Assembly (NCBI GenBank): GCA_001972305.1
Contig: BDDD01000907.1
Span: 124,001-188,000 of the forward strand
DNA length: 64,000 bases
Source of the DNA: Cephalotus follicularis
Taxonomy: Eukaryota; Streptophyta; Magnoliopsida; Oxalidales; Cephalotaceae
Direction of reading: 5' to 3'
Shown one piece after another: positions 3,185-62,965 of this stretch. Made by a program: the position numbers and the translations under genes. The notes beneath the pieces are model-generated. The model had not been told where the DNA came from. It searched no databases and saw only the letters and a list, made by a program, of their open reading frames with translations. Each line of letters starts with the position of its first letter. The stretch's first letter is position 1.

Positions 3185-5898
3185 TGTAATACCATGTTCG
3201 TTCGTAAATATATTTTACGGATATTAAATGTGTTTTCGGGATTTTAATTTTGTTTAATTTTAAAAGTTCGTTTGCCCTATGATCGGGTTTATGTGAATTG
3301 TGCTGTCCGATTTCCGGTCCGAAATTGTGTATGATATGCTATGTTGGGTTTTATTTATTTTATTTTAATCCCAAATTATTTTAATTAAAAACAAATTATT
3401 ATTCTTTTATTCTAATATTCCTTATTTTCGTTTTTCATTCTTAATTCATTTTATCAATATTTCTTCAATTTCCTTTTCCTATTTTACCATTTTCTTCTTC
3501 TTTTCTCCCACTTTTCTCCTACTTCCTTCCACCTTCTTCCTTCTTTCCAGCAGATTCCTTCTTCCCACCATATGAATTCACATGTTAAGTCATTCCTTTT
3601 CCAATTCAAAATAAAGAAAAGTTCCCTTTCTTCCCCCTTTTGTCAAATCTTGTCTCCTCCTTTCTCCTTTCTTTATGTGCCTTTGCCATTTTATATGATA
3701 CCTCCATCATTCTTGCAAGCTACTGTAGATTCTATCTTGTTAGTGTATAACAAACTAATGTGTAATTCATTCATCAAATTCGTAGAGGTAAATTCGATTC
3801 TTAGTTGTTCTTCAAGTTGAATTCATTGGGTTTGCTAAACTTCTCTTTATTTTGGTTTCTTTTGGTCCATGTTTTTGTCACAGCCGAATTGTGAGTTGTG
3901 TTTGTATTACAACTACTATTTTATGGGTTACATAACATCACTACAGGTCAGTGAATTCATTCCCTTTAATTATGTTTTTGTAACAATGGCTTACTTTGAG
4001 TTTTTGTGCTCTTGGTATCTTGGGGTCTTTGATTTCTTGCCAAAACATGTTATCATTGTGTTAGTGATATTATCTGCACATTTTATGCACATAAATATGT
4101 CACAAACTGAGTTTACAACATCTGCAACCAATTAGAAACAGAATATGGACATGTTCATGCAATGTCTTCTTGCTTCCTTTTTCAAGTTAAATCTCTACCA
4201 AGTTGTTTCCTTGTCAAATTTGTGTTTCTATGTCACCTAAAAGTCATATATAATCATATGTTTATGTCCATATGTCTCTAGTTTAATGTAGAAAAAATTT
4301 GAACCATTTTAAGTAGCAAATCGTCGGATTTCCAACTGTTCTGTCGCCCAGAACAGTCGGCAGTCTCAGTGGACAGTCGGCTAGAATGGTTGAGTAGTCG
4401 ACTGGAGGGATGAACAAAGTTGACTACCTGAATTTTTGATTGTGTAGTCGACTGTTCATATGGTCCAGTCGACTACCAAGCCTCCCCAGTCAACTGAACA
4501 CCTGTTCTAGTCAACTGTTATGCCCTGGTATGTGCTGTTTTCAACTGTTTTGATTCGTTTGATCCCCGAATCAATCCGAATCATTTCCAAACACTGTTAT
4601 GAGTCTGTTTAATGCTTCTGATGTGTTTTAGACTCTTATACATATGATTTTGAATGACTTTTAGATTGTGTAATTAAAAGGAGAATTTGTTTTTGATCGC
4701 CTATTCGTAAATACTTTGCAAACGAATAAGGTACGGATTTTCTGTTCCTTGGCTATCTAACATTCAAACTAAAAATGTTTTACTAAACATCTTCGTTTAT
4801 GAAATCAAAGATGTTTTATGATTTTGATACGTTTCGAATTTAAAGTTGGTTTGACATTTTAATTGATTCCGACTTTATCTATACAATATGTTATGGTACG
4901 ATATGTTAGGATATGATATGATATGTTATAATACTGTTGTGAGAAGTTTTTGAATATGTTGTGTGAAAACATATTTATGTGATTTAAGTTGATTTTGATA
5001 AATCAATTATTTTAATTTAAATACTGAGTATTATACCCACCAATAGGGCGTATCCAAAGGCACGTCGTGGGCCTGGCACGGGGAAGTGACAATTACGTAG
5101 CGGTGTGATTAGACTACGGCGTCTCTGAGTGTATGAACGAATCCCAAGAGGTGGATTTGTGGATCCGCTATGTGATAAAGGCGTATGAATCGATTCTAGT
5201 TTATGTGATCTGAGGTGAATTCAGATATGTGGTCTGAGGTGTGATCGGACATGTGTATGTGAGAATTGACTTGTGTAGTGCCGTACACTTCAGTTCTAGT
5301 GGGCATGTGGAATTAGCGCCTCCCTTGCCAAAATTTATGATATGTGATATGAATATGGCTCAGTATGTTTTACGAACTACGATTTATAGCATTTTGAATT
5401 GTTCCGTAATTGTTTAGAAAAATATGCAATTGTCATTTGAATATGATTAAACTATTTTATCTGTTAAAGATTTCTGTTACGTTATTATTGAAATATAAAT
5501 GTTTTTAAATTATCGTTTACTGTTTTATTTCCCTTATCCGTACTGAGGTTTGCCCAGCCGCGTTTTTGTTTTCCATACGGCAGGTTTTCAGGAGCAGCGG
5601 GGGAAAGTGTGATTGAGTGATGACCACCCTATGAGTTGGATCCTTAGGAAATTGATCCCTATGCTATGTTTTGTGGTCTGAAACATGGATTTTTATGTTT
5701 TATGTTTTTAAATTGGAACTGATTTATGTTTTGAATTTTCCACAACTACTTAATATGTTAAATGTTAAGTTTAAATGTTTTGATAAGACTGCCACGTTTT
5801 CGGCTGTCTTTGACTAATAAAGCAAATTTATGAGTTTGTTAAGTTATGATATGTATGATATGACCCTGTGACGACTCCCGCCGTTCGGGGGTGTTACA
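3185..5898 (+). repeat. T1 5' LTR (2714 bp)
   Basis: It begins TGTAATACC and ends GGGGTGTTACA. It contains a pyrimidine-rich tract (3470-3560), a cluster of AGTCGACT-type palindromes (4343-4520), and a GTGTAGTGCCGTACAC block near 5274 that is shared with the LTR fragment at 60.9-63.0 kb. Short open frames inside it (for example 3572-4135) show no protein family features. Confidence 0.92.
4343..4520. repeat. TCGA-palindrome array in T1 5' LTR (CAGTCGACTG version)
   Basis: Core tetramers (TCGA or its TCGG, TTGA and TCAA variants) start at 4357, 4377, 4398, 4420, 4448, 4469, 4490 and 4511. Spacings are 20, 21, 22, 28, 21, 21 and 21 bp. The flanks read (C)AGTCGACT(G), and the spacers are not repeated. 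The shorter 3' LTR has no such cluster. Confidence 0.9.
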
Positions 5899-5915
5899 GA
5901 ATTTTGGTATCAGAG
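5899..5915 (+). other. T1 primer binding site, initiator tRNA-Met type
   Basis: TGGTATCAGAG lies 6 bp after the LTR end. It is complementary to the 3' end of plant initiator tRNA-Met (consensus TGGTATCAGAGC), the usual primer for Tekay-type elements. Confidence 0.85.
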
Positions 5916-6069
5916 GATTAGGTTTTGTTTCCTTAGAAGACCTAACTAGGTTTGACCTGTGAGATTGGGTAGACACCGGGTTAGGCTGTTTCGCTTATGA
6001 TTTTCTGATATGTTTTCTGCCTTCTGTTTTGTTCCTTGTGATGTTTTATGTTTGAGCGCCTTTTCATAG

Positions 6070-7170: not shown

Positions 7171-10100
7171 GTGGGAGGTCGTGTATTTGCTATCACGACT
7201 CAGAAGACAGCTAACGCACCAGGTACTGTTTCGGGCTCTATTTATGTTGGTAACCGTAGGGCTTATGTTTTGTATGACACTGGATCGACCCACTTGGTTG
7301 TAGCGAGGTCTTTTGTTCGGCTTCTTTGGATGTTTTCTCAGTTGCTTGATCCAAGTTTGGTTCTTTCGACCCCTACGGGTTCATCTGTTGTGATATCTGA
7401 GTGCTTTTATGCTTGTCCTCTTGCTTTCGATGATCGGGTTCATGATGCGGACCTTTTGCCTATCGATATGTACGACTTCGATATGATTTTACGAATGAAC
7501 TGGTTGGATCGACATCTGGCTACGATCGACTGCTATGCTCGAAGAGTTTTGTTTGGGGATGTGAATAGTCCTGAGTTTGTTTTTCAGGGTTCACAGCCTA
7601 GGAAAGAAGTGAAAGTTATATCCGCTTTGAAAGCTCGGAAGTTGGTAGCTAAGGGCGCTGAAGGTTTCTTAGCTGTTGTGAAGGATGTCTTGAAGGTGGA
7701 GCCTCACCTTGAAGACTATCCTGTGGTACGAGAATTTTCTGATGTGTTTCTGGAAGAGTTACCGGGTTTACCACCACAACGGGAAGTGGAGTTTACCATC
7801 GAACTCATTCCCGGGGCGGCACCTTTACCTAAGGCACCTTACAGAATGGCACCGTTGGAACTGCAAGAGTTGAAGGAACAGTTGCAAGAGCTGTTAGATC
7901 AGGGTTTCATTCGGCCTAGTGTTTCACCGTGGGGTGCTCCGGTTCTTTTTGTGAAGAAGAAAGATGGGTCTATGAGGTTATGTATAGACTATAGAGAGTT
8001 GAACCGAATTACTGTTCGGAATAAATACCCGCTACCTAGGATTGATGACTTGTTTGATCAACTCCAAGGTGCTCAGTATTTCTCGAAGATCGATTTGAGA
8101 TCGAGATATCATCAACTTCGGATAAAGGATGAAGATGTGCCTAAAACTGCTTTCCGTACTCAGTATGGGCATTATGAGTTTTTGGTGATGCCTGTCGGAC
8201 TCAGTAATGCACTGGCAGTTTTCATGGATCTGATGAATAGGGTTTTTCATGATTACTTAGATCAGTTTGTTATAGTGTTCATAGATGACATTCTTGTATA
8301 TTCCAAGTCGAAGGAAGAGCATGAAGAACAGCTTCGCATTGTGTTGGGGATTATGAGGAGGAATCAGTTATACGCGAAGTTCTCAAAGTGTGAGTTCTGG
8401 TTGGAACAGGTGGCATTTTTGGGTCATGTGGTTCCAGCGGAAGGTATTTGTGTGGATCCTGCTAAAGTTGAGGCTATTACGAAATGGCCGAGACCTACCA
8501 CAGTGACGGAGGTTAGGAGTTTCTTGGGTTTGGCTGGATATTATAGGCGGTTCGTGGAAGGCTTTTCCTCTATAGCCCTACCACTTACTCAACTTATGAG
8601 GAAGGGAGCAAAGTTTGAATGGAATGAAGAGCGAGAAGCAAGCTTTGAGAAATTGAAGAATGGTCTTGTGTCAGCACCAATTCTTCGTTTACCATCTGGG
8701 TCGGGTGGATACCAGATTTACAGCGATGCTTCTATGAAGGGTTTGGGATGTGTTCTGATGCAGCACGGTCATGTGATAGCTTATGCTTCGAGACAGTTGA
8801 AACCTTACGAAGTGAACTATCCTACGCATGATCTCGAGTTTGCAGCGGTAGTGTTTGCATTGAAGATTTGGAGGCACTACTTGTATGGAGAAACTTGTGA
8901 CGTCTTTACCGATCATAAGAGTCTCAAGTACATCTTTACGCAGAAAGAGTTGAACATGCGCCAGAGAAGGTGGTTAGAACTTCTGAAAGACTATGATTTG
9001 AACATTCAGTACCATCCTGGTAAAGCAAATGTGGTTGCTGATGCTCTAAGTCGGAAGAGTTCTTGGAGTGTTGCGGCTTTGCTTACTCAGCCGCTGTTGA
9101 TAGCTGATATGGAACAAGTAGAGTTACATTTGTATGTTCGGGGTTCTGATGGTTGTATTGCTGTGATGAATGTTGAGCCTGCTCTCGTATCTCGGATTAA
9201 GACAGCTCAGAGTGACGATGGTGACCTTTGGGCCTTAGTCCAGAATGTTGAAAAGGGTAAGCAATCGGAGTTCCGTATGGATGAGCATGGTGTGATATGG
9301 CTGGGTAATCGGTTGTGTGTTCCGTCAGATTCTTCTATCGGAGATGTTGTTTTGTCAGAAGCACACAGTTCTCCATTTTCTATACATCCGGGTTCTACGA
9401 ACATGTATAGGGACTTGAAGAAAAATTTCTGGTGGAATGGAATGAAAAGGGATGTTGCGAAGTACGTTGGGAAGTGTTTGACCTATCAGCAGGTAAAGAT
9501 TGAACAACAGCGTGCTAGTGGTTTGTTACAGCCCTTGGAAGTTTCGGTATGGAAGTGGGAGAGCATTTCGATGGACTTTGTTACGGGTTTGCCGAGAACT
9601 TTCAGAAGGCATGATGCTATATGGGTAGTAGTGGATCGATTGACGAAATCGGCTCACTTCTTGGCTATCCGAGAAGACTTTTCAGTTGACCGTTTGGCTG
9701 CGGTGTTTCAGCAGGAGATAGTGAGACTGCATGGGTCTCCGGTATCCATTGTTTCGGATAGGGATCCTCGTTTCACATCGCGGTTTTGGAAAGGGTTTTA
9801 GAAAGCTTGGGGTACGAGGCTCAGTTACAGTACAGCTTTTCATCCACAGACAGATGGGCAGACTGAGAGAACCATCCAGACCTTAGAGGATATGTTGAGG
9901 TCTTGTGCTTTGGAGTGGACTGGGAGCTGGGATGAGTATTTGAGCTTGGTGGAGTTTGCCTACAATAACAGTTGGCATGCTAGTATCGGTATGGCCCCGT
10001 TCGAAGCTCTGTAAGGAAGGAAGTGTCGTGCTCTGACATGTTGGGATGAAGTTGGAGAGCGAGTTATCGAGGGACCTGAGCTAGTGCGGGTCACTATGGA

Positions 10101-10611
10101 GAAAGTGGCAATAGCAAGGGAGAGATTGAAAGCGGCTCAATCTCGACAGAAGAGTTATGCGGACAGACATCGGAGGGACTTGGAGTTCAAGGTGGATGAA
10201 CATGTGTTTTTGAAAGTTTCGCCTTGGAAAGGAGTTCGACGTTTTGGACTGAAAGGAAAGTTGAGTCCGCGGTTTATCGGACCTTTTGAAGTTCTGGAAA
10301 AGATAGGCGCGGTTGCTTATCGGTTAGCTTTGCCTCCGCAGTTAGCACATGTCCATAATGTGTTCCACGTGTCTTTGCTGAGGGGTTATCAGTATCATCC
10401 CCTACATGTGGTTCACTATCCGTTGGATAGTATTCGAGAGGATTTATCTTGTGATGAGGAGGCCAAGGCTATTTTGGATCGACAGGAACGGGTGACATGT
10501 AGCAAGACCGTTTCTTTTGTGAAAGTGCTGTTGGGGAATCATCCCGAACGTGAAGCTACTTGGGAGCTTGAGGAGCATATTCGGGAGCAATATCCGCACT
10601 TGTTTGTTTGA
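7171..10611 (+). mobile_element. T1 pol region: PR, RT, RNase H, IN, chromodomain-like end (fossil)
   Basis: Protease: YDTGSTHLV near 7273, with the catalytic DTG. Reverse transcriptase: LCIDYRELN near 7980 and [13 protein letters not shown] near 8270, with the catalytic FIDD. RNase [14 protein letters not shown] near 8720 and FTDHKSL near 8905. Integrase: a zinc-binding-type N-terminal part around 9385-9500 and the core with MDFVTGLP and DRLTKSAHF from about 9570. C-terminus: the GPFEVLEKIG block and an ATWELEEHIREQYPHLF end near 10550, which resembles the chromodomain tail of Tekay/Del elements thought to guide insertion into heterochromatin. The region carries a couple of breaks and cannot be regarded as functional. 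Confidence 0.92.
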
Positions 10612-10644: not shown

Positions 10645-11631
10645 CTTCTTTTTAGGAGGGGTAGATGTAATACCCTATTCGTTCGTAAATATATTTTACG
10701 GATATTATATGTGTTTTCGGGCTTTTAATTTTGTTTAATTTTAAAAGTTCGTTTACCCTATGATCGGGTTTATGTCAATTGTGCTGTCCTATTTCCGGTC
10801 CCAAATTGGGTATGATATGCTATGTTGGGTTATATTTATTTTATTTTAATCCAAAATTATTTTAATTAAAAACAAATTATTATTCTTTTATTCTAATATT
10901 CCTTATTTTCCTTTTTCATTATTAATTCATTTTATTAATATTTCTTTAATTTGCTTTTCCTATTTTACCATTTTCTTCTTCTTTTCTCCCACTTTTCTCC
11001 TACTTCCTTCCACCTTCTTCCTTCTTTCCAGCAGATTCCTTCTTCCCAGCGCCTCCCTTGCCAAAATTTATGATATGTGATATGAATATGGCTCAGTATG
11101 TTTTACGAACTACGATTTATAGCATTTTGAATTGTTCCGTAATTCTTTCAAAAAATATGCAATTGTCATTTGAATATGTTTAAACTGTTTTATATGTTAA
11201 AGATTTCTGTTACGTTATTATTGAAATATAAATGTTTTTAAATTGCCGTTTACTATTTTGTTTCCCTTATCCGTACTGAGTTTTGCTCAGCCGCGTTTTT
11301 GTTTTCCATACAGCAGGTTTTCAGGAGCAGCGGGGGAAAGTGTGATTGAGTGATGACCACCCTATGAGTCGGATCCTTAAGAGAGTGATCCCTATGCTAT
11401 GTTTTGTGGTCTGAAACATGGATTTTTATGTTTTATGTTTTAAAATTGGAACTGATTTATGTTTTGAATTTTTCGCAACTACTTAATATGTTAAATGTTA
11501 AGTTTAAATGTTTTGATAAGACTGCCACGCTTTCGGTTGTCTTTGACTAATAAAGCAAATTTATGAGTTTGTTAAGTTATGATATGTATGATATGACCCT
11601 GTGACGACTCCCGCCGTCCGGGGGTGTTACA
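10645..11631 (+). repeat. T1 polypurine tract and 3' LTR
   Basis: The polypurine tract AGGAGGGG lies just before the LTR start at 10666 (TGTAATACCC). The LTR (966 bp) ends GGGGTGTTACA at 11631, followed by the target duplication TTTAT. It corresponds to the two ends of the 5' LTR and is much shorter. Confidence 0.9.
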
Positions 11632-14975: not shown

Positions 14976-15100
14976 TTCTAGTTGTTGATGAATTAGTCTC
15001 AATCCTTGTTTTGATGATAACATATTTCCATTTAACAAGTTTACTTGATGTGTAAGATATTAGAAAGCTTCACAAAAGGCAAAAATCTACTGCAAGGAGA

Positions 15101-15720
15101 AAGACATCGATCCTCATTGAAGAAGACATCGATGTCTTAAAGCTATCGAAGTTACAGGCCAAAATTGGAGAAAGACAGCGATCCTTTTGAAGAAAGACAT
15201 GGACGTCCGTACAAAAGACATCGATCCCTATCCAGAAGACATCGACGTCTTTAGGTACCAAAGTTACAGGTCAAATTTGTGTGAAGACATCGATCCCTAC
15301 AAACAAAGACATCGACGTCCATACAAAAGAAATCGATCCCTATGAAGAAGACATCGACGTCTTGAGGTGCCAAAGTTACAGAACAAATTCAAGTGATGAC
15401 ATCGATCCTTATTTGTAAAGACATCGATGTTCATGCAAAGACATCGATCCTTTACCATAGACATCGACGTCTTTCTATACAAATCTGCAAAATCCAGAAA
15501 AGACATCGACCCCTGAAAAAGAAGTCGATGTGATGTTCATAAGTTCAAATACCTGGAAACATTCCCAGCAAAGACATCAACGCCTTTAAAAGACATCGAC
15601 GTCTTTTCAAAAAGATTGACCCAGGAAACACGAAACGGATAGTTAGCGCACTTACAGCGGCTAGTAACAGTCAAAGACATCGACGCCTTTCCAAAGACAT
15701 CGACGTCTTTCTACCAGCAG
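15101..15720. repeat. TCGA-palindrome array in S 5' LTR (GACATCGACGTC version)
   Basis: Twenty sites have cores starting at 15107, 15129, 15178, 15200, 15221, 15242, 15290, 15312, 15333, 15354, 15402, 15424, 15444, 15464, 15506, 15525, 15577, 15596, 15680 and 15700. Spacings inside groups are 19-22 bp; gaps between groups are 42-52 bp and once 84 bp. Odd-numbered sites read GACATCGATCC, or CCC/CGCC-ending forms. Even-numbered sites read GACATCGACGTC or GATGTC. Part of the array is a tandem repeat of 112 bp (15178, 15290, 15402), marked by the recurring CAAAGTTACAG block. Confidence 0.93.
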
Positions 15721-15801
15721 AGACAAAAGCTAAGTTGCATCAACACATTTTTAAATCAAAAGCTTCCAGGATTTATGCAATGGCTATAAGACTCTTCTGC
15801 C

Positions 15802-15809
15802 TATAAAAG
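15802..15809 (+). promoter_or_regulatory. TATA box of S 5' LTR
   Basis: TATAAAAG lies about 100 bp downstream of the last palindrome of the array. The same box in the same setting occurs at 23950-23957 in the 3' LTR and at 53606-53613 in LTR F, which supports it as the core promoter of this LTR family. Confidence 0.75.
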
Positions 15810-15962
15810 GAAGATTCAAACCTCAGAGAAGAACAATAATTTACAACTGAACTACAACAATTCAACAAGAATTACACAACATCAAGAGAGAAATCAAATT
15901 CAAGCATTCTAGTGTGAAAAAGCTCAAGTGCTCCATAGTGTTCTAAAAAGCTTCAAAGCTCC

Positions 15963-17591
15963 ATGGAATTGAATCTGTCTAACAAGGAAAGCATGTCCAT
16001 CTCAAAGCCTCTATTTTTCGATGGAAACAACTACAGTCATTGTAAAGCAAAGATGACAATATTTATTCAAGCTCTTAACTTCAACCTATGGGACATCATC
16101 ATTGACAGCCCCGAACTTCCTCACATCATCTCGCAAGAAGGTATCAAAACCCTCAAACCGAGAAGTTTGTATACGGATGATGATAGAAAGAAGGTACAAT
16201 TAAATGCTAAAGCTAAACATATTATTATATGTGCCTTGAACTCTAACGAATTCAATAGAGTATCATCATGTGCTACCCCTAAAGAGATGTGGGATAGACT
16301 AGAGGTTACCTATGAAGGAACCAATCAAGTCAATGATGCTAAAATAAATATACTAGTAAGAGAATATGAAATGTTCTCCATGAAAGAAAATGAAAATATT
16401 TCCGGTATGTTTGTTCGTTTTACAAATATTATTAACTCTCTACAATCTTTAAATAAATGCTACACTAATAGTGAGATGGTAAGAAAGATACTTAGATGTC
16501 TACCCAAAAGTTGGATGCCTAAGGTCACGGCTATAGAGGAAGCAAAAGACCTCAACACCTTGCCACTTGAAGAACTTCTTGGATCACTCATGACGCACGA
16601 AATGACTATCAAAAATCATGAAGATGATGAAGAACAAGATAAGAAGAAAAAGAAGGTCATTGCATTCAAATCTTCTACAACAGATTCAAGCGATGAAGAT
16701 AGTGATGATGAAATGGCTTTGATCACAAGAAGATTCAAGAAATATTGGGCAAAGAAGAAGTTTGGAAGCAAATACTTCAAAAAGACATTACCCTCAAAAT
16801 CCGAAACAAAGAAGGAAGAAATAATTTGTTTCGAATGCAACAAACCCGGACATTACAAGAGTGAATTTCCAAGGTTGAAGAAAGCCAAAGATACAATTAA
16901 AAAGAAGAAAGCTATGCTTGCGACATGGTCGGATAGTGATGAATCAAGCTCCGAAGAAGAAGAGAACCAAGAAGTAGCACAACTAGCATTGATGGCAATC
17001 AACAATAGCGAGGAAGATGAAGATGAAAACGAGGTAAGTGAACTTCTCGAATTACTTGGAAATTTTAGTCTAGAAAATACTTCCCTTAAAAGGACTATTA
17101 AAGCTCTTAATAGAGAAAATGTTAGTTTAAAACATGAAATAGAATGTGTATCTAATAAGTCCTTGGATGATAAGACTATCGATCTTGAAAAGGAAAATGA
17201 GACTCTAAAAGTAGAAATTGATGCCCTTAAGAAGACATTTTCCAAATTTTCAAATAGTAGTGAAAAACTTGACAATCTCTTAGGACTCCAAAGGTGTGTT
17301 TTTAATAAGGCTGGCCTAGGTTATGATGAAATGAATAATGTCAAACATTTTCAAAAATATCTTGAAAAGAAAGATAGTAGAAAGGCCTCATCTATCATAA
17401 CTTGCACCTATTGCAATAAATATGGTCACACTGCACAAAATTGTTACCACAAAAGAAATGACATGCACAAGAGAAATTTATTATTGAAAAATAAAGTGTT
17501 TAAATTAAGAACTATATGGGTTCCAAAAGGAACATTTATTACTAACCCCCCCGGACCCAAAACAACTTGGGTACCAAAGTCCTCTACTTAA
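15963..17591 (+). mobile_element. S gag region (fossil)
   Basis: The 542-residue open frame starts MELNLSNKESMSISKPLFF, with the KPLFFDGNNYSHCKAKM box typical of copia gag (UBN2-like capsid). It continues with MWDRLEVTYEGTNQVNDAK and FVRFTNIINSLQSL. There is a first knuckle-like block, CFECNKPGHY, near residue 290 and a complete CTYCNKYGHTAQNC zinc knuckle near residue 480. An acidic, Lys- and Glu-rich coiled-coil zone lies between them, as in SIRE gag. It would form the particle shell and bind the RNA. The start is the first Met after the leader-like CTCC. Confidence 0.88.
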
Positions 17592-17599
17592 ACTCTCTT

Positions 17600-20500: not shown

Positions 20501-20632
20501 GTTGAAAGTGGAGACATTGTCTTAGAGTATATTCCTACCGAAAAACAAGTGGCGGATATTTTCACTAAACCTCTAGATGAAAATTCTTTTTCAAAATTTA
20601 GAAGAGAATTAGGTTTATGTGAGTTTGAATGA
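17600..20632 (+). mobile_element. S pol region: PR, IN, RT, RNase H (fossil)
   Basis: Protease: WYLDSGCSKHVTG near 17630, with the copia DSG triad. Integrase: the zinc-finger start WMWHRRLGHVS near 18017, the core YVIVDDYTRYTWVYF near 18270, and a later [13 protein letters not shown] segment near 18500. Reverse transcriptase: [13 protein letters not shown] near 19240, MDVKSAFLNG near 19430 and ALYGLKQAPRAWYERL near 19545. RNase H: YSDADFGGYKVDRKSTSGS near 20176 and the TEAEYIA box near 20305. The KHIDIRYYFLREHV and DIFTKPL end is standard for copia. The region is broken in several places. Confidence 0.92.
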
Positions 20633-20739
20633 TGTTTATTTTTTTGTATGATTGATTTAATTGTATGCTCAATTGATATGATGATTGATTGTTGATTATT
20701 TTTATGTTTTTGTTTATTTATATTCTGGTTTTACAAAAA

Positions 20740-20985: not shown

Positions 20986-21188
20986 ATGCTCATCTTCCAC
21001 TTTACACTAATACTGAGCATTTCAAAAAAATTTCTCTCTCTGATTTTTTCGTTCAAAATCGGTCTAAATCTTTCTAGGAACATCTTCTCTAGCATCCTTC
21101 GACATCAAAAATCATTTCTCCCTTTTCAAATCCAACTGTTTTTCTCATTCTCTGTGTTTGTCAGTTGTGCATACCAACTGTTTGTTAA

Positions 21189-48004: not shown

Positions 48005-48737
48005 TGTAATAATCGCAAATTCAATTCATGTACATCGTAATATTGATTAATAAAATGTGCACTCATTTGAATTTAATGTCCAATTATTATAAATTGTGAT
48101 GGGTAATTGCTTGGGATGAATGGATGTACAATTGGTGAAGTATCCAACTTAAGAAACCGTAAGACAGCTCGACAGCCGACTGTCACAGGGGAACAGCCGA
48201 CTGTCACAGGGGAACAACCGACTGTCTGAGGCATGAGTGGACAGTCGACTGGCCAATGCATCCAGTCGACTGGAATGGTGCAGAATAGGCACCTGGCAGG
48301 CGCAGAGACAGTGATGCCAAGTGTTCTAGAGGTGGCATGCATGGGAAATGAGTGTCACCAGCTACCATAACATGCAAGGGGAGTGCCTTGCATGTCCTCT
48401 GTTCATTCTGCAAATTGTAGACCTGCAACCTGCAAGAATCAAAAGAGAGAAAGGTGAGAAAAGGAGTGCATACGAGAGAGAGAAGGAATGAGAGGAGCTG
48501 AGTTAAAGGACTCTGGAGAATTCAAGGTCCCTAAGCCCTATATCAGTTGTGCGTGAGCTGAGATTGAGTGTTAGAAACACTAAAAATTGAGGAAAGTTGT
48601 TGGGATTATTGGAGATTGCATTGAGGATTTGGAGTGGAACTCAAAGACTTGGAAGCTTTAGACTTCTCTTGGTACGTTCAATTCGAGCTCCCTGCTTAAG
48701 TAGTACTATTAATGATGCAACTAGGAACGTTAGTTAT
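48005..48737 (+). repeat. D 3' LTR, left part, with preceding polypurine tract
   Basis: AAGGAGGGGGGAA precedes TGTAATAATCGC at 48005. This part holds a palindrome cluster (48165-48275) with one more GACTGTCACAGGGGAACA unit than the 5' LTR. It ends at GTTAT (48733-48737), the target duplication of E. The rest of the LTR is 57857-59711. Confidence 0.92.
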
Positions 48738-49888
48738 TGTCACACCCCGTTTTCCAACTTAAGACAACATATGAAATGGCACGGCTATCAACACAGTATA
48801 ATCCAGCTCATGCAAAATTCCAAATAAATAAAAACCTTCAGATACCGGAAGCAATAACATAAATGAGCCGAATTTAAACACGCTTCACGCATCCCATACA
48901 ACGTGACGCCCAACAAGTTTATAAAAAACCCAACAATATTGCCGATCGCCCATAAACGGAGCGTGATAAAATAGTACGAGATAACATAATATCCTTTATT
49001 ACAATAATCCAAATTACATAATCATTGTTCCATAATCCAGTACATAAAAAATAGAGAAACTACACAGTCTTGTCTTTCAGTCTCCAAGCAGGCACCATCT
49101 CACAAACCACTCCATCAATCTGTTACAGTAGGGGTTAGCCTTTGTCCTCACTCGGCAAAGTAGAAAAGTTTATGAATACAGTTTAAGGTCAAGGTAATGC
49201 GTATCATGAATGAATGCATAATGATGCAGCATGATATGAAATTTTCACAAAAATATATCTCCGTATATACATATAAAACAATATATGCATGCTCACAGTA
49301 CAGGTATAACTCATAAGTTATCTCAACACAAGCAGTAAAATGTTCCAAAAGGAACCAGACAGTCCAGTCATCATATCCGTCGCCACCTCCTGGCCCCAAC
49401 GTCATGCACTCTTATCCCATCCCGTTTGTGAACGGTTTGGAGCAAGTCCTCCGTATGTTGTTTAGCACGATGGCTAACCCAACAGTCACAAGTATTGCAC
49501 TGTACAATTCAAGCAATAAAGTATAATCACTTGATCAAATATATTTGTTTAAAATATATTACTCCGTTCACAAGTTGAAATAAGTCATAAAACTTAAAAC
49601 AATACATTTGGATTGCGTAGTCAATCCTTTAAAACAGTTCTCCGTATTTGGGGATACTTCCCTAGCCATTTCAAAAATATATAAAATCATATATTTGACA
49701 AATATACATTTTCGTGCAATAATGATTATAATAATCATGTAAGCTTTTCAAAATGGTTAACACTTTGTAGAAATCAACCATAATGCAATTCACAGTAATA
49801 ATGCAAACATATGCTCAGAATGCACCTAGGGTTGTTGGTAATTAACCTAGGCTTATCTCCTTCTCTAAAAGTCCCATTTCTGCTGTAA

Positions 49889-50110
49889 CAGTCGACTGTT
49901 TTTCCATAACAGTCGGTTGAATCCTTGAGTCAGTCGACTGCTCTTCCCCAGCAGTCGATTTGTTCATCATGAGTACCAGGCAGTCGACTGCCTTCCTTCG
50001 ACAGTCGACTATTCTGGGTAACATTGCATGCGTAGTCGACGGGTATTACATGCCAGTCGACTGGATGTTTGAGTAGTCGACTGCTTTAATTGAGCAGTCG
50101 GCTGCTCTGG
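49889..50110. repeat. TCGA-palindrome array in the E 3' LTR, first cluster
   Basis: Core starts are 49892, 49913 (TCGG), 49934, 49955, 49984, 50005, 50036, 50057, 50077 and 50098 (TCGG). Spacings are 21, 21, 21, 29, 21, 31, 21, 20 and 21 bp. This is the clearest example of the two-turn period in the window. The partner cluster is at about 56497-56710. Confidence 0.95.
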
Positions 50111-50936
50111 GCTAGACAGTGACAATAACTCACTGTTAATTCATCCAATCAAGCAACTGAACTTATTATCATGTATTTCAATTATCAGAATAACACTAAT
50201 AATCACACATTGGTCTAAAACACAACTCAATTCATGCATTATACTCCGTTGTCATCATAATTCAAAAGAAATCCAACTATGGCATTGCATGAAAACCTTT
50301 TCCATTCTCCATTCAAAATTCAGTAAGCATGCTAGGTTATCTATCAACAATAACCACAACAACCATACTGTAATCTACAACCAAAACAACGGTACCATTC
50401 CTTTATAACACCATTACTTTTAAACTTAAAAAGCATGCATAAAATCCTCTACACTACCCCTACCTTCGATTTCAAGTTAGAAATCGGAAGTCCACCTCTT
50501 TGTGTCTCCTTTCCATAATCCTTGAGCTTCCCAATAGCTTCACGAACCGTCCAGAAGCTTCAATCCAAGGTCCAAGCTTTAACAATGGAGGATCCTCTCA
50601 CTTCCTCACTATTTCTAACTCAAATTCTCACTGTCTTGGCTCTCAAACTCTCTGGTTCTTCCTTATCATATTGTAGGGTGAGAGAGAGGAAGGCAGGAAG
50701 CATTTTTATGTAGTCCTCTCCCTTTAACCCCTTTTGCATGGCATAACAGCTTTCCTCTCTCACTATCACATGCATGCTCACCCACATGTCCCCTTTTCTC
50801 TTCCTCTCTGTCTTTGCAGGCCCTGACGTGATGGTGCATGCCCAACACGTCCTTTTTATGATCAGATGGCGCCTGCAAGTTATCTTATAAAGGGCTGCAT
50901 GTGATCTCGTCACATGCAGATAAAACAGGGCACAAT

Positions 50937-51092
50937 CCAGTCGGCTGCCTTTCCCTGGCAGTCGGCTGCCTCTCCTGGCAGTCTGTTGCCAAGTGTCATG
51001 ATAGCTGGCCAGTCGACTGGTTCCTCACGCCAGTCGACTACCTCCCCCTTTTGTCCAACAGTCGGCTGGTATATTGCACCAGTCGGCTGTCC
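50937..51092. repeat. TCGA-palindrome array in the E 3' LTR, second cluster
   Basis: Several CAGTCGGCTG variants (for example 50939, 50960, 51060, 51081) frame two full sites at 51010-51019 and 51031-51040, which are 21 bp apart. The pair is also 21 bp apart in the other LTR (57608 and 57629). Confidence 0.88.
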
Positions 51093-51254
51093 AGGCTAGA
51101 AATCTCCACAACTACACTTAGAATCACTCTTCTAAATGCTCTAAGTTAACTTGAATTCAAGAAATCAACCAGGAAATCTTCCTTTTATTAATTCAAGGTA
51201 AAGATTACATCGAGGATTACAATAATACATGAAATTGAATTTCCGGGCGTTACA

Positions 51255-52845: not shown

Positions 52846-54056
52846 TGTTGACGATTTAGTCTCAATCCTTGTTTTGATGATAACATATTTGCATCTAACA
52901 AGTCTACTTGATGTGCAAGAAATTACAAGTTCAATATCAAAGAAAAATACCATCTGCAGAAGAAGACGTCGACTCTCAACAAATGACATCGATGTCCGTA
53001 CAGAAAGACATCGACGTCTTTAGTGCAAGATCAAATTACAAAGAGGACATCGTCCTTCCAGTAATGACATCGACATCCGTACCGAAAGACATCGACTACT
53101 TCCAAGATGACATCGACATCTTCCAAGTTCACATCGACTACTTCCAAGATGACATCGACGTCTTCAGTGCCAGAAGCTACTGTATGAAATTGCAATCAAA
53201 GACATCGATCCCTACATCAAAGCCATCGACGTCAATACAAAAGACATCGACGCCTTTCCATAGAGATCGACACTTTTCTAGAGCAACCTGCATTTCCCAG
53301 AAAATACATCGACTACCACAGAACAAGTCGACGTGATGCTCAAAGTCTCAATACCTGGAGATTTCCCAGAAAAGACATCGACGCCTTTTGAAAGAAGTCG
53401 ACGTCTTTTTAAATGAACAAGACCCGGGAAACCAGGAACGTCTAGTACAAGCACTACCAACGGCTATCAGCTACAAAGACATCGACGCCTTTTGAAAGAA
53501 GTCGATGTCTTTATACCAGCAGAGACAATAATAAAAGATTGCAACTACACATTTATTAATCAAAAGCTTCCACAAATCATGCAACGGCTACAAACCTTTT
53601 ATGGCTATAAAAGGAAGACAAAAACCTCTGAGAACGAAAAGGAGAAGAATATCATACATACAAAGATCAAGCAAAACAAACATACAAAGATCAAATCAAA
53701 TTCAAAGTTCATTCAAGAAGCTTTCTCTTCACACTTTAAGCTGTTTTCTTGTTCTCACTGATTTGAGCAATTATATCTTGTAATATCCAAACTGTGACAG
53801 GTTTAGCTACAAACACTACACTTTACACTTTGATTGTAATAGGGGAGTGAACCCTAGTGAATTTGGGGAGTGAACCCAAAGAGTGTTGTAAGTGATTGTG
53901 GTCAATCACAAAGGTGTACCGAATAACACCCGCAATTGTATTCGGAGAACTAGTAGAAACTCAAGGAGATCCTTGGGAAAAGTGGACGTATGCAAGAGTT
54001 TTGCCGAACCACTCTAAACTAGTGTTTGCAAATCTCTCTAACTCTATCTCTTTACA
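52846..54056 (+). mobile_element. LTR F: SIRE-type LTR inside element E (fossil)
   Basis: It starts TGTTGACGATTTAGTCTC and aligns with the S LTRs through the array, the TATA box at 53606-53613 and the CAAGGAGATCCTTGGG tail. It ends near CTTTACATTATTG (54056-54075). It is about 1.2 kb with no internal region attached, so it is a solo or broken LTR. The flanks (TGGTC and TTATT) do not match. It is more diverged from the S LTRs than they are from each other, so it is a different subfamily member. Confidence 0.82.
52965..53515. repeat. TCGA-palindrome array in LTR F
   Basis: The first core starts are 52969, 52989, 53011, 53050, 53070, 53092, 53113, 53134 and 53155. Spacings are 20, 22, 39, 20, 22, 21, 21 and 21 bp. 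Another ten or so sites continue to about 53510. As in S, sites ending CGACTACTTCC or CGACGCC tend to alternate with sites ending CGACGTC, CGATGTC or CGACATC. Confidence 0.92.
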
Positions 54057-55330: not shown

Positions 55331-55347
55331 ATGCTCTGATACCACGT
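55331..55347 (-). other. E primer binding site, initiator tRNA-Met type
   Basis: The minus strand reads ACGTGGTATCAGAGC directly after the 5' LTR end at 55348, as in B and D. Confidence 0.88.
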
Positions 55348-57851
55348 TGTCACACCCCGTTTTCCAACTAGAGACAACATATGAAATGGTAAGGCTATCA
55401 ACACAGGATAATCCAACTCATGAAAAATTACCAATAAATAAAAACCTTCAGATAGCGAAAGCAATAACATAAATGAGCCGAATTTAAACAGGCAAGACAC
55501 ATCCCATACTACGTGACGCCCAGCAAGTTTATAAAAAACCTAACAATATTGCCGATCGCCCATAAACGGAGCGTGATAAAACAGTACGAGATAACATAAT
55601 ATCCTTTGTTACAATAATCCAAATTACATAATCATTGTTCCATAATCCAGTACATAAATAATAGAGAAACTACACAGTCTTCTCTTTAAGTCTCCAAGCA
55701 GGCTCCATCTCACAAACCACTCCATCAATCTGTTACAGTAGGGGTTAGCCTTTGTCCTCACTCGGCTAAGTAGAAAAGTTTATGAATACAGTTTAAGGTC
55801 AATGTAATGCGTATCATGAATGAATGCATAATGATGCATCATGATATGAAAATTTCACAAAAATATATCTCCGTATATACATATAAAAAAATATATGCAT
55901 GCTCACAGTACAGGTATAACACATAAGTTATCTCAACACAAGCTGTAAAATGTTCAAAAAGGAACTAGACAGTCCAGTCGTCATAACCGTCGCCAACTCT
56001 TGGCCCCAACGTCATGCACTCTTACCCCAACCCGTTTGCGAAAGGTTTGGACCAAGTCCTCCGTATGTTGTTTAGCACGACGGCTAACCCAACAGTCACA
56101 AGTATTGCACAACACAATTCAAGCAATAAAGTATAATCACTTGATCAAATATATTTGTTTAAAATATATTACTCCGTTCACAACTTGAAATAAGTCGTAA
56201 AACTTAAAACAATACATTTCGATTGCGTAGTCAATCCTTTAAAAGAGTTCTCCGTATTTGGGGATACTTCCCTAGCCATTTCGAAAATATATAAAATCAT
56301 ATATTTGACAAATATACATTTTCGTGCAATAATGATTATAATAATCATGTAAGCTTTTCAAAATGGTTAACACTTTTTAGAAATCAACCATAATGCAATT
56401 CACTGTAATAATGCAAACATATGCTCAGAATGCACCTAGGGTTCTTGGTAATTAACCTAGGCTTATCTCCTTCTCTAAAAGTCCCATTTCTGCTGTACCA
56501 GTCGACTGTTTTTCCATAAAAGTCGGCTGGATCCTTGAGTCAGTCGACTGCTCTTCCCCAGCAGTCGACTTGTTCATCACGAGTACCAGGCAGTCAACTG
56601 CCTTCCTTCAACAGTCGACTATTCTAGGTAACATTGCATGCATAGTCGACTGGTATTACATGCAAGTCGACTGGATGTTTGAGTTGTCGACTGCTTTAAT
56701 TGAGCAGTCGGCTGCTCTGCGCTGGACAGTGACAATAACTCACTGTTAATTCATCTAATCAAGAAACTGAACTTATTCACATGTATTTCAATTATCAGAA
56801 TAACACTAATAATCATACATTGGTCTAAAACACAACTCAATTCATGCATTATACTCCATTTTCATCATAATTCAAAAGAAATCCAACTATGGCATTGCAT
56901 GAAAACCATTCCCATTCTCCATTCAAAATTCAGTAAGCATGCTAGGTTATCTATCAACAATAACCACAACAACCATGCTGTAATCTGCAACCAAAATAAC
57001 TGTACCATTCCTTTATAACACCATTACTTTTAAACTTAAAAAATATGCATAAAATCCTCTACACTACCCCTACCTTTGATTTCAAGTTAGAAATCGGAAG
57101 TCCACCTCTTTGTGTCTCCTTTCAAGAATCCTTGAGCTTCCCAATAGCTCCAAGAACCGTCCAGAAGCTTCAATCCAAGCTCCAAGCTTTAACAATGGAG
57201 GATCCTCTCACTTCCTCACTATTTCTCACTGTCTTGGCTCTCAAACTCAATGGTTCTTTCTTATCAGATTGTAGGGTGAGAGAGACGAAGGCACGAAGCA
57301 TTTTTATGTAGTGCTCTCCCTTTAACCCCTTTTGCATGGCATAAGAGATTTCCTCTCTCACTATCACATGCATGCTCACCCATATGTCCCCTTTTCTCTT
57401 CCTCTCTGTCTTTGCAGGCCCTGACGTGATGGTGCATGCCCAACACGTCCTTTTTATGATCAGATGGCGCCTGCAAGTTATCTTATCAAGGACTGCATGT
57501 GATCTCGTCACATGCAGATAAAACAGGGCACGATCCTGTCGGCTGCCTTTCCCTGGAAGTCGGCTGCCTCGCCTGGCAGTCTGTTGCCAAGTGTCACGAT
57601 AGCTGGCCAGTCGACTGGTTCCTCACGCCAGTCGACTGCCTCCCCTTTTCTCCAACAGTCGGCTGGTATATTGCTCCAGTCAGCTGTTCAGGCTAGAAAT
57701 CTCAACAACTGCACTTAGAATCACTCTTCTAAATGCTCTAAGTTAACTTGAATTCAAGATATCAACCAGGAAATCTGCCTCTTATTAATTCAAGGTAAAG
57801 ATTACATCGAGGATTACAATAATACATGAAATTGAATTTTCGGGCGTTACA
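55348..57851 (-). repeat. E 5' LTR (right)
   Basis: This is the partner of 48738-51254 (2504 bp). Palindrome clusters lie at about 56497-56710 and 57535-57685. It ends CGGGCGTTACA, followed by the duplication GTTAT. Confidence 0.92.
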
Positions 57852-57856
57852 GTTAT

Positions 57857-59711
57857 CTTCTGTAATTGTTAAGAATCAACAACTTCTAGAATTGAAATAG
57901 AATGTGATAATGGTTCAAGTATAAATGGAGATGGTAACCTCTAATTTGGATTATTTTTGTTGTTAGTTAGTTGTTATAACTACTGATTTCCCTAGTATAC
58001 ATATATACCTTCTGTCAACACATTAAGATCAATGAATCCGAGATTGAAAGGTACTTGACATAGAGTTCCAAAGGGAAAGTTGTAAATGAAAGTTAAGACT
58101 TAGGGAACGTGTAATAAGCTGCTGTTGACATAGTAATTACGTCTGGATAGATTAGTCGACCTACTGATTAGGTGACTGAAACTGTAAACCTGCATGTATA
58201 GATTATATTCTGCCGGATTGAAGATTGTTGGTGTAAAGGCTTTGGAAACTCAACGAGAAAGATCATCCCAATTGATCTTGGGATAGAAATTTAAGGTAGG
58301 GGTAACGATATGTTTTGGCAGATATGAACATGCATATCATGTATGTTACTTTTCTGCATTATTGCATGTTGGATTGGATTGGTATTAGAGATTGAAAATT
58401 GAAAACTGCTACTGCCTGTATTTTCTGGGCAGAAGCAGTCGACTGTTCTTCATTGCAGTCGATTGCTAAGGCAAAGCAGTCAACTACTCAACCAAAGCAG
58501 CCGGCTATTCTTGAGAGCAGTCGACTTTCCTGGGTAAAATTACTGATATAGGTCCTGTTTGGACCCAATTGAATTGCTACTGTCCTTGTTATTATTTCTA
58601 TATGCTCTACTGTTAATTAGTATATACTAGTAACTGTTACAAAACCTATTGATTCCATATTTACAGGGATTGAACAAACTCGGTGCTATATGCACAATTT
58701 ATGATATTAAATATCATTTTCAAAACAAAGCTTATTGTTTAAAAGAACTACTGATTTTCCTCCTATATGAGAGGTACCTACTATTTTGTTTCCCAAGCTG
58801 GAAACCACTATGTAATTGAAGTCATTTTCCTCATATAAGATGTACGATAAATGAATTTTTAAATGTTTCTAAAAAAAACCACTTTTATATTGCATATTGC
58901 TGATATATGTAATATTATTATTGAATGCTTGTATAGATTGTGCTTGTTGCCAGTGGTCGAGTGATGGTTGTGGTCACCGACTACGGTAGGGATCCTGGGT
59001 GCCAGAAGTTGGCCAGGAGATCTCCAAACTTGTCTGCATTGCAGATCTTATATTGTTAAACTACCTGCCAACGCCGGTAGTAAATGTTACCTATTCTATC
59101 ATCCTCGGAGCGCAGGAGATAGTTAGGTAGTGCACAGTCGGAGCTTGGAGATAGCGGCATGTGACACCCAAACCATGGATGAATTGATTGTACCCTTGTG
59201 CGGTATTCTTGCATATGGATTGTTTATGGCCACTTGGCATGATTGCTATATATATTGGCACATTTAAATGATATTTAAAATATGAACTGTCATACATGTT
59301 GCGTTCATATATTCCTTAGCATGCATTATCTTTCTACTTAGCCAAGTGAGGACAACGGCTAACCCCTACAATTTCAGATTAAGCGAAGACGTTTGAAGAT
59401 TGCTGCTGATGCTTGGAGAGCTTCTAATTTCGTTTTAAGGTTGTTATTTTCATAATGTTGTACTGTTTTGTATTGAATGGTTCATACCTCGTTAATGTTG
59501 TACTCCCGCTTGTAAGGATAATTTATTTGAATTGTAACCGCACGTAGTATGGGATGCATGCGGATGACTTATGTTTATATTCTGGCTTTTGAATGCTTCC
59601 ACATATGATTTATGAAATGTTAAATGAATGCTGGAATATATTCAATTACTGATATCACCACATATGCTTGTCTTAATGTCGCTTATGGAATTGGAAAGAC
59701 GGGGTGTGACA
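57857..59711 (+). repeat. D 3' LTR, right part
   Basis: It continues the LTR that starts at 48005, matching the D 5' LTR from CTTCTGTAAT onward. It includes the palindrome cluster 58430-58530 and ends GACGGGGTGTGACA, followed by ATATC. Confidence 0.92.
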
Positions 59712-60862: not shown

Positions 60863-60888
60863 CTCCACTATCATCTATAAAAAAAAAA

Positions 60889-62965
60889 ATTGGTTTGATC
60901 GTGTATTGTCTAAAAACCATATTTTGAAAAGTATTGAATGCTGGTTACACATTATTGCGTTCTAGATTATTGCAGTAGTAGTTTTCAAATAAAGAAATCA
61001 TCTTTTACTAGTTTTATATTACTGTTTTGTCGAATATAAGTCATTCAGATTGTTCACATACCACTATCAATGTAACAAAATTGTTTTGATCATGTTAAAA
61101 CCATATTTTAAAGGTTGTTTTTGCTATATTTCAATTTGTAAATTTATTCTTGACACGTTTAAATTGTTTTACTGGTGTCTACATATAGAGAGAATTATGT
61201 TTTATTGATTTCATACTGCTATTTTATAGTTAAGAAAATCGGATTTTGGTTCATGTTTTGCAAACTGGCGTCAACACGTTTCATGTTTTTGACATAAAGC
61301 GTTGACGCCTATGTCTAAGCGTCGACGCCTGTGTGTGTAATAATATGTTTTTAAACGCCATGCCTATAAGCATCGACTGTTTCGTTTTTACCATCGACGC
61401 TTTGCCTAAACCGTTGACGCCTTTCCTTGCACGTCGACGCTTATGTCGTGAATGTTTGTATGTTCTGTCGACGCTTTGTGAAGCGCTTTGAGTACAATAA
61501 GTGTTGAAACCATCGACGCCTTATGTTAAGTGCCGACTCTTTTATCATGCGCGTCCACGCTTTTGTCCAACACGTCGACGCTTTCTCTGGCTGTTTTGTT
61601 ATTTTTTTGTTTATATGTTATGGTAATGATTGGGTTCATTCGTTTAGGTTTGATAACATCTGTGGTGCAGTTTAAGGTGATTCCAAGTGTGCTTTTGATT
61701 CCTTTTTGGGTCCTTTTAGGTTTGAGTGGCTAAGGTACATATTTCTTGTTCTTGATTATACTCCTTGGATTTTATTGGAATAAATTTAGTTTTAGTTTTA
61801 ATGAATATGTACGGATTTTCGTTCTTCGATATCCCTTTGGTTTTATGAATTTCGTTATGCTACGGATTTTGTTATGTTTTGGAAATAAAGTCAGCTTTAA
61901 TATTTCTGTAAAATTAAATATTTTTGACTTTATAAATTCTGTTATGATCTGTTTACGAAAATTTTATACGATTGTCTCATTTATTGTGAAAATGAAAATG
62001 CATTTATTTTTTATTGCGAAAATGTACTGATTTCTTCGTCTTTGGTTATCATCCTTCGGTTTTATTTGAATCGATTTAGTTTTGTCTTGGTGAATACGGA
62101 CAACTCATTTTTAATCATTATCCTCTGATTTTATTGAAATGAATTCAGATATGTTTTTTGTACGGATTCGTTGTTTTGACTATTGTGTTTCGATATGATT
62201 TAAATAAAATCCGTTTTATTACCCTCTGAGTAAAGTTGGATAATACTGATTTTATAAATGAGCATGATTTTCACTTATGAAAGTATGCTAATTTTTATGA
62301 TACAGATTTTGTTATTAAATTCAACATGATTTTCACTTATGAGAGTATGCTAATTTTTATGATACATATTTTGTTATTAAATGTGCATGATTCTCAATTA
62401 CGAAAGTATGCTGATTTTATGATATGTTTTGGAATTGGTTTTAGAGTAAACCAATAATTTGAAATGACTTTTGATAAAATCATTGTTTTCGAAATACTGG
62501 GAATATTTGTTTCCTACCTATGGAGGTACCATAGGCATGTCGTAGGCCTGGCACGGGGACATGACACTTCCGTAGCAGTGTGATTAGTCTACGACGTCTC
62601 TTAATATCTTGTGATATGATATGGCCAACTAAGGCGTATGGATCGATCCTAGTTATTTGTGATATGTTATGTTGTGGGAATTTATTGTGTAGTGCCGTAC
62701 ACGTCATTCCATATGGCGTGTGGGCTTTGCAAACCCCTTGCATATATGAACGTATTTAAACCGTTTATTGCATATCTCAGTATTAACCACTATTTGGAAA
62801 AGTTTTCGAAACTGGTATGAACAAAAATGTATATCTACCTTATGAAAGGTTGTGAATCTATATATGTATATGTTGTTAGATATAGTGACCCGACAAGCCA
62901 TTAGATGGGTTGTCATATTATATCTTACCATGTATGGAACAATCTTATTCTTATATATATATATA
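60889..62965 (+). mobile_element. T1-related Tekay-type LTR fragment (fossil)
   Basis: Blocks match the T1 5' LTR in order: the CTAAGGTACATATTTCTTGTTC region (near 61730, against 4730), GGCCTGGCACGGGGACATGACA (near 62545, against 5070) and GTGTAGTGCCGTACAC (near 62688, against 5274). The LTR ends are not present, so it is a fragment of a diverged family member. An (AT)n run near 62946-62967 marks its right edge. Between 61600 and 62500 it is AT-rich, with no coding sequence. Confidence 0.7.
61268..61585. repeat. TCGA-palindrome array in the LTR fragment (GCGTCGACGC version)
   Basis: Core starts are 61271 (TCAA), 61302 (TTGA), 61322, 61373, 61394, 61414 (TTGA), 61434, 61468, 61513, 61533 (CCGA), 61554 (TCCA) and 61575. 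Spacings are 31, 20, 51, 21, 20, 20, 34, 45, 20, 21 and 21 bp. Confidence 0.88.

Follow-up and report, generated by a model that had tools for sequence, protein, structure and literature searches.

Why should retrotransposons of two unrelated superfamilies carry the same short palindromes in their long terminal repeats (LTRs), set at the same distance from one another? The question is raised by a 64,000-nucleotide stretch of the Cephalotus follicularis genome (positions 124,001-188,000 of contig BDDD01000907.1; assembly total 1.577 Gb), called the window here, in which Ty1/copia Sireviruses (element B and a truncated LTR, F), Ty3/gypsy elements (A, C, D and E) and an LTR-like fragment (G) carry arrays of near-dyad sites centered on TCGA. 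Our data suggest that these arrays are probably cis-regulatory sites for a factor that binds specific DNA sequences, probably as a dimer, and that they are an extended form of the RM boxes of Sireviruses. We take the near-dyad symmetry as a sign of a dimer. Sites for a trans-acting factor are suggested by words that are kept while the spacers are not, by a fixed step between centers, by the position of an array ahead of a TATA-like box (in B and in a second Sirevirus, X), by the repetition of the array ahead of an internal gene, and by the same codes in unrelated elements. From these features of the sequence we infer protein binding, dimerization, cooperativity and promoter control. Sites would stand 21 bp, or two helical turns, from one another, with two to four in each group, a distance at which neighboring proteins can touch. 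Groups would be joined by ~28-bp steps or by lost sites, and the factor would act in trans across superfamilies. It could be the Sirevirus-encoded protein PF20167, with its sites taken up by Ty3 elements, or else a few proteins of the host. If a shared trans-acting factor does read the arrays, unrelated retrotransposon superfamilies would be co-regulated, and perhaps co-multiplied, via a common DNA code.

A 21-bp step between sites

Sites were called with at most 2 mismatches in 10 positions or 5 in 16 (the relaxed rule). Spacings below 200 bp were pooled from eight array sets (A, C, D, E, G, B, F and the internal array of B) with one LTR per element; the site list of A was edited by hand for this pooled test, with one-step sites added and one chance site at 1187 removed. 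Spacings of 19-22 bp made up 56 of the 89 (3 at 19, 18 at 20, 28 at 21 and 7 at 22, with none at 18 or 23), compared with a mean of 11.7 and a maximum of 23 in 5,000 random placements. Arrays were present in all three Sirevirus LTRs and in seven of the eight Ty3 LTRs of full elements, the exception being the 3' LTR of A. The original prediction, which had placed arrays in every SIRE-type and nearly every Tekay-type LTR and had given 19-22 bp as the usual spacing and 21 bp as the commonest, was thus right on both points. All of its coordinates and spacings were recovered, those of D, F and an array it named T1 as quoted. Its series for E (49892-50098) reads 21,20,21,31,21,29,21,21,21 in element sense, the reverse of the order it gave, and the 61.3-kb fragment, where 20 and 21 were said to recur, has 31,20,72,20,20,34,45,41,21. 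It had treated T1 as a separate element, which instead lies within the 2.7-kb 5' LTR of A.

The excess that it expected near 21 bp over shuffled LTRs was also found: exact TCGA pairs 20-22 bp apart reached the floor of p = 0.003 (300 dinucleotide shuffles) in 9 of 12 stretches, the others being the D 3' LTR piece (0.023), A (0.066) and fragment G (0.070). A and G reached 0.003 only when one-step variants of TCGA were counted, and TCGA itself was not enriched in A (6 versus 7.4 in shuffles). Perfect 10-bp palindromes were in excess only in the D 5' LTR and both E LTRs (0.003) and in G (0.030); A, B, C and F showed no excess (0.29-1.0), which we attribute to a fixed mismatch near the center of the code used by B, C and F.

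An independent sample gave the same step. This was a 200-kb block from the first base of C1 (C1:1-200000), chosen after the first C1 places of the three-site pattern had been listed. TCGA autocorrelation at 19-22 bp was 10.7 times expectation, and the remaining 15 palindromic tetramers ranged from 0.9 to 5.6 times. Pair counts, made with 12 second-LTR ranges masked (which removes some but not all repeated pairs) and 60 shuffles, gave 72 TCGA pairs at 19-22 bp against 5.0 +/- 2.0 (maximum 11 in the 60 shuffles), and 3 pairs at 24-26 bp against 4.1. The genome-wide search that the prediction had proposed found three TCGAs exactly 21 bp apart at 31,848 places, compared with 2,676 for the reversed control. 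By our rule, the 200-kb sample holds 26 arrays: 18 resembling LTRs of the window (two weak members of which belong to Y, a third Sirevirus-type element), 5 more belonging to X and Y, and 3 others. These three, outside the families identified here, lie at C1:17086-17240, 88756-88816 and 137530-137613 (L050, L057 and L062); the first mixes AAAGAC- and GCG-type sites.

Palindrome codes shared across superfamilies

Where the prediction described a single palindrome, there are at least two codes, plus a third in G. Site profiles are CAGTCGACTG for A, D and E (the CAG code), AAAGACATCGACGTCTTT for B and, almost unchanged, for F (the AAAGAC class), and gCGTCGACGC for G. The profile of C, gAAAGACATCGACGtCTTTg, is the Sirevirus 18-mer, present in both C arrays and with the asymmetric core, ATCGAC, pointing the same way as in the Sireviruses; the relatives of C, namely A, D and E, have the other code. 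The array carriers A, C, D and E are not Sireviruses: domain scans gave Ty3-type RVT_1 in A and C, Ty3-type RNase H in D and Ty3-type gag in E. Sireviruses with the code of A, D and E are the mirror case of C, and two of them, X and Y, lie in the 200-kb sample. Each code therefore occurs both in Sireviruses (Ty1/copia) and in Ty3/gypsy elements, which goes beyond the earlier claim of a common layout, as the words themselves are shared. The exact 18-mer occurs 37,431 times genome-wide and its reversed word 161 times. When one fixed rule was applied to 11 LTRs, the sole crossing between these codes was one CAG site in C; C and a C-like LTR, C2, each had one GCG-type site.

Sharing is confined to the sites. 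With sites picked by TCGA alone, the 7+7 flanking bases of C and B/F had an identity of 0.58, those of C and A/D/E one of 0.30 and those of non-array TCGA sites one of 0.26; none of 20,000 label permutations was as large. At 10-15 bases from the center, identity between C and B/F was 0.27, equal to background, and their BLAST matches were 32-59 bp pieces at sites. A single transferred LTR segment with conserved spacers, which the prediction had named as an outcome that would count against it, is rejected on this fall in identity and on the site-sized matches.

The LTRs of C and E are related, with collinear blocks 71-87% identical and arrays at like positions (158-317 and 1078-1340 in C; 170-312 and 1155-1361 in E); these related LTRs thus carry different codes at both array positions. 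A CATAAA lies between the two arrays, at 610 in C and 544 in E from the LTR start, which suggests that array II of both may lie in the transcribed leader.

Two codes in unrelated superfamilies would be explained directly by a freely available protein, that is, by a host transcription-factor family with two specificities on which the superfamilies converged, the array before PF20167 then marking a second promoter. This is possible, and only slightly more probable to us than PF20167 as the factor. Against it, the 18-bp word is informative along its whole length, which is long for a host factor, tens of thousands of exact copies might titrate such a protein, and a code that follows the PF20167 clade (below) would be unexplained, except by descent.

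PF20167 as a candidate reader

Sireviruses carry an LTR array, which in B and X precedes a TATA-like box, and a further array ahead of PF20167. The LTRs of the Ty3 elements hold one array or two (two in C, D and E). In B, X and Y, the internal array is followed by a PF20167 ('Putative plant transposon protein') frame in place of the 'envelope-like' gene, and within the 264 kb searched the family was found in these three elements only. Protein P0124 (81.8 bits) and Y (64.0) score above the Pfam gathering score of 45 bits. The broken frames of X and B, scanned in pieces against the same cutoff, gave 27.4 and 39.4 bits in X and 29.1 in the first piece of B, with no match in its last piece; both are tied to the family by tblastn. 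The X and Y proteins are 50-52% identical to each other and 23-25% identical to four clade-1 proteins.

That PF20167 is the factor, binding its own LTR and internal promoter while Ty3 elements, which lack the gene, exploit it in trans, is possible but doubtful. In its favor is the code found upstream. First-look searches returned 15,267 candidates with a clade-1 query and 12,310 with a clade-2 query (the sets may overlap); scores were listed for 95 and 107 of them, respectively. From these, 11 clade-1 and 12 clade-2 places were picked by hand and their upstream 0.8-1 kb inspected; the clade-1 copies were all stop-free, and the clade-2 copies were 78-100% identical, 10 of them stop-free. The 12 clade-2 copies each had 2-4 CAG sites, for the most part spaced by 19 and 21 bp, and all lacked AAAGAC-class sites. 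All 11 clade-1 copies had 5-9 AAAGAC-class sites and no CAG sites, with a geometry of mostly 41, 42, 20, 29, 20, 51, 21, 21, or the same minus some sites. The code thus agreed with the clade in 23 of 23 sampled copies; these represent two lineages only, so the match cannot separate co-evolution from common descent. Under the same loose rule, B has 7 AAAGAC-class sites upstream and Y 4 CAG sites, but X has 2 AAAGAC-class sites beside its 6 CAG sites, and many cores fit neither code (30 of 72 in clade 2, 53 of 140 in clade 1).

Also in favor, the protein clades share a mean identity of 23% (maximum 28.6%), compared with 51-53% between the gags of B and X, and Y keeps an unbroken PF20167 frame, although no gag or pol match was found in it. 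Two AlphaFold models (28 and 48 rows) were poor, with mean pLDDT of 39.0 and 39.5, and the only well-modeled part is a long C-terminal helix that, judged by eye, could be a coiled coil and hence mediate dimerization. Counting against a role in binding, no DNA-binding domain was recognized in the domain scan, and a basic N-terminus occurs in clade 1 only (net +7.1 versus 0.0 in clade 2; 44 and 18 proteins). Four Sireviruses are also reported to have LTR boxes without an envelope gene (PMC2829016). Protein searches of IMG/VR and GTDB contigs returned no relatives, and the 1 and 43 viral stretches matched by the DNA patterns were taken as chance. An extra TGTTCGA site lies just ahead of the start of the PF20167 match in all three copies inspected (L073 at 861, L074 at 924, L075 at 956).

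A fuller version, which we put forward tentatively, is that the long-unexplained 'envelope-like' gene encodes no envelope but a dimeric DNA-binding reader, specified by the transposable element (TE) itself, of 21-bp phased palindromes on its LTR and its own promoter; protein and code would have co-diverged into at least two specificities, and Ty3 elements would hijack both, with a whole set of sites changing code together inside a single Ty3 group. If true, this would give the Sirevirus envelope-like gene a testable role.

Phase, orientation, folding and divergence

Several observations weigh against reading the arrays as sites for a cooperating dimer. The first concerns helical phase. In the 200-kb sample, multiples of 21 bp are preferred (40-43 bp, 37 pairs versus 5.0; 61-64 bp, 27 versus 4.5; 83-85 bp, 14 versus 3.5), but so are off-turn steps of 27-31 bp (16 versus 6.0), 48-52 bp (28 versus 6.2), 69-73 bp (33 versus 5.9) and 91-94 bp (29 versus 5.0). 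There is little at 24-26, 32-39 and 44-47 bp, and 53-60, 65-68 and 74-82 bp stand at 2.4-3.1 times shuffles. The extra peaks match 21n plus one ~28-bp step, which leaves them about 2-3 bp short of a whole number of turns. Phase is thus held within groups of sites, but the array as a unit is not on one helix face. Strict one-face phasing was rejected: spacings above 24 bp gave R = 0.42 at a 10.5-bp period (p ~0.003), with a mean offset of -1.5 bp, and R = 0.50 at 11 bp.

Sites also keep a constant orientation. Counted in element sense, ATCGAC:GTCGAT cores are 9:1 in C, 10:1 in B and 12:1 in F, and AGCCGACT:AGTCGGCT is 7:0 in X, 11:0 in Y and 5:0 in E, with 0:1 in A and 0:3 in what we label K. 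A strictly symmetric dimer would not need such constancy. In C2, the asymmetric core is reversed (0:3, with the orientation of C2 assumed), so the same-sense statement is made for C only. The cooperative dimer on one face of the helix suggested by the original prediction is therefore compatible with the 21-bp step, but is at odds with the ~28-bp step, which breaks phase, and with the constant orientation.

RNA folding offers another account, in which the palindromes act as hairpins, either as small-RNA templates or in RNA dimerization, as proposed for maize Sirevirus LTRs. All 11 arrays fold better than their dinucleotide shuffles (z -2.2 to -7.2; 60 shuffles each), and small-RNA hot-spots over the maize palindromes are consistent with such a role (parts of PMC10760457 and PMC5311732). 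When spacers were shuffled, natural spacing folded slightly better than random spacing, again in 11 of 11, but the gain of 0.3-2.1 kcal/mol is below one standard deviation of the controls and so small that folding hardly explains the 21-bp rule. The strong folder, the B array before PF20167 (-70.4 versus -52.2), works via its spacers. We consider hairpins an unlikely explanation of the arrays.

Divergence between paired LTRs is no lower in the motifs than elsewhere (motif/rest: E 0.069/0.046, C 0.020/0.023, B 0.040/0.031), giving no sign of constraint, as expected after insertion. Counted from one LTR of each pair, none of the 28 CpG positions in motifs of E differ (elsewhere 13 of 92), and for C the figures are 0 of 53 in motifs and 1 of 125 elsewhere, for B 3 of 52 and 1 of 14.

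Array growth could also be passive, with 21-bp units duplicated head to tail as a minisatellite and spacers then decaying. The B LTR array holds 112-bp tandem blocks at 15141-15439, ~80% alike with several sites each, so that part of the growth is by block duplication, and spacer pairs in E, taken together, are 0.34 alike versus 0.27 +/- 0.02 when shuffled. However, adjacent spacers in A, D and E are 0.28-0.30 alike versus 0.23-0.27 shuffled, the related LTRs of C and E differ in code at almost every site with arrays at like positions, and the ~28-bp step recurs in unrelated elements, making a minisatellite origin very improbable. Binding sites for a trans-acting, probably dimeric factor seem to us the best account.

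Elements of the window

Element borders and LTR pairs were taken from a self-BLAST of the window (Table 1), which also placed element E in the D 3' LTR and identified G as an A-like LTR fragment near 61-63 kb. In A, 1,747 bases (3568-5314) of the 5' LTR are missing from the 3' LTR, and the self-alignment showed no target-site repeat at the junction, which makes loss of these bases from the 3' LTR seem more probable than their insertion into the 5' LTR.

Element C has an RVT_1 match at 5.3e-21 and a chromodomain (Chromo) of 27.5 bits against a cutoff of 25.1, which classes it as a Ty3 chromovirus. The RVT_1 match of D is below cutoff, as is its Chromo match (20.4 bits), no Chromo match was found in 10015-10611 of A, and in E the scan covered the gag frame only. 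The 'Tekay' label for the Ty3 elements follows the original prediction and is presumptive. Element B is copia-type (Retrotran_gag_2 2.5e-31, RVT_2 7.9e-50), with the Sirevirus polypurine tract (PPT) AGGGGGAG at 22735, 22780 and 23121, and with AGGGGGAGAT directly before the TG at the 3' LTR. In a protein search with the gag of B, proteins of Cephalotus follicularis, a pitcher plant of the Oxalidales, ranked first, the best being 90% identical over 96% of the query. Copies of AGGGGGA number 3 in X, 4 in Y and 3 in Z (minus strand), the last one at the LTR junction. The LTRs of Y (L064, L065) are 98.6% alike, and it has arrays as well as its PF20167 frame.

Table 1. Coordinates of array-bearing elements and associated features (window positions, or C1 where stated).
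Feature	Position	Strand	Details
Element A (Ty3) 5' LTR	3185-5898	+	2714 bp; self-BLAST partner of 10666-11631
Element A array (T1), CAGTCGACTG-type	~4350-4525	+	8 sites; spacings 20,21,22,28,21,21,21
Element A 3' LTR	10666-11631	+	lacks 3568-5314, array included
Element B (Sirevirus, Ty1/copia)	14982-24112	+	LTR 983 bp
Element B 5' LTR, AAAGACATCGACGTCTTT-type array	14982-15964	+	18 sites (relaxed rule)
TATA-like box, element B 5' LTR	15801	+	downstream of array
Element B internal array, AAACACGTCGACTTCTTT-like sites	20740-20990	+	8 sites (relaxed rule); spacings 42,20,29,20,63,20,40
PF20167 frame, element B	21190-22497	+	downstream of internal array; broken; three open stretches; tblastn with P0124 74%
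Element B 3' LTR	23130-24112	+	AGGGGGAGAT just before; identical 18 site positions
Element C (Ty3 chromovirus) 3' LTR, both arrays	29287-31942	-	97.6% identity to 35796-38446; identical 14 positions
Element C 5' LTR, arrays I and II, AAAGACATCGACGTCTTT-type	35796-38446	-	14 sites (relaxed rule); profile gAAAGACATCGACGtCTTTg
Element D (Ty3) 5' LTR, CAGTCGACTG arrays	40695-43270	+	8 sites; arrays ~40866-40940 and ~41988-42096
Element E (Ty3) LTR, CAGYCGACTG arrays	48737-51254	-	16 sites vs shuffle mean 0.69; arrays ~49890-50100 and ~50940-51086
F, truncated Sirevirus LTR within element E	52846-53634	+	18 sites (relaxed rule)
Element E second LTR	55347-57851	-	94.8% identity to 48737-51254; same arrays; 16 sites
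Element D 3' LTR, second part (split by E), array II	57851-59711	+	4 sites; spacings 20,21,41
G, GCGTCGACGC-type sites in LTR-like fragment	61260-61600	+	10 sites; 76.8% to A LTR over 138 bp
X (Sirevirus PPT signature, copia gag)	C1:4376-10195		11 CAG[TC]CGACTG-like sites per LTR
Y (Sirevirus PPT signature, short)	C1:157624-162249		16 CAG[TC]CGACTG-like sites per LTR
Z (Sirevirus of AAAGAC type, copia gag)	C1:102703-107186		

Comparison with known systems

The EBNA1 sites of Epstein-Barr virus oriP are 18-bp palindromes bound by dimers, some pairs standing 21 bp apart and others ~30 bp. That system is an animal-virus replication origin, and the analogy implies no homology.

Palindrome arrays in Sirevirus LTRs are already published. 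The RM boxes comprise eight or more palindromic copies that precede the TATA box in the LTR, and a second cluster just before the envelope-like gene that was taken as support for an internal promoter of that gene (PMC2829016), the function of the gene being called unproven (PMC2829016, PMC3414828). Element B has this layout, with 18 LTR sites at 149-720, a TATA-like box at ~820 and 8 internal sites. RM boxes mostly have a CGG-CCG core and were reported absent from classic Ty1/copia elements (PMC2829016). The cores here are GTCGAC or ATCGAC with no CGG-CCG signature, but the published Tnd-1 is likewise an exception, its unit (ACAATCGATTGT) and that of Vitis (CGGTCGACCG) being centered on TCGA (PMC2829016). 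The arrays described here differ further in occurring in Ty3 elements as well, in using two codes across superfamilies and in their 21-bp step; the parts of PMC2829016 covered contain neither a spacing rule nor Ty3 elements. In the open-licence literature, covered mostly as listings, we found no report that describes such arrays for Ty3 elements, a sharing of codes or PF20167 as a reader, and PMC6911290, as far as covered, concerns insertion at palindromes rather than LTR arrays.

The maize Sirevirus LTR hot-spot (Bousios et al. 2016, via PMC10760457 and PMC5311732) is likewise a palindrome-rich cis-regulatory region, but was interpreted, in the portions of those sources considered, as a hairpin source of small RNAs; maize Ty3 elements were described as having no obvious peak of such hairpin structures (PMC10760457).

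A parallel for a TE-encoded reader is the VANDAL/VANC anti-silencing system of Arabidopsis, in which VANC binding and loss of methylation were shown experimentally (PMC5735166, PMC10398659). As here, short tandem motifs lie in non-coding parts of TEs and differ between related TEs, and the unrelated TE AT9TSD1 carries the VANC6 motif. Neither text, in the parts covered, mentions palindromes or spacing, and the likeness implies no protein homology to PF20167. If PF20167 does read the arrays, VANC-type co-evolution of motif and protein would extend to LTR retrotransposons.

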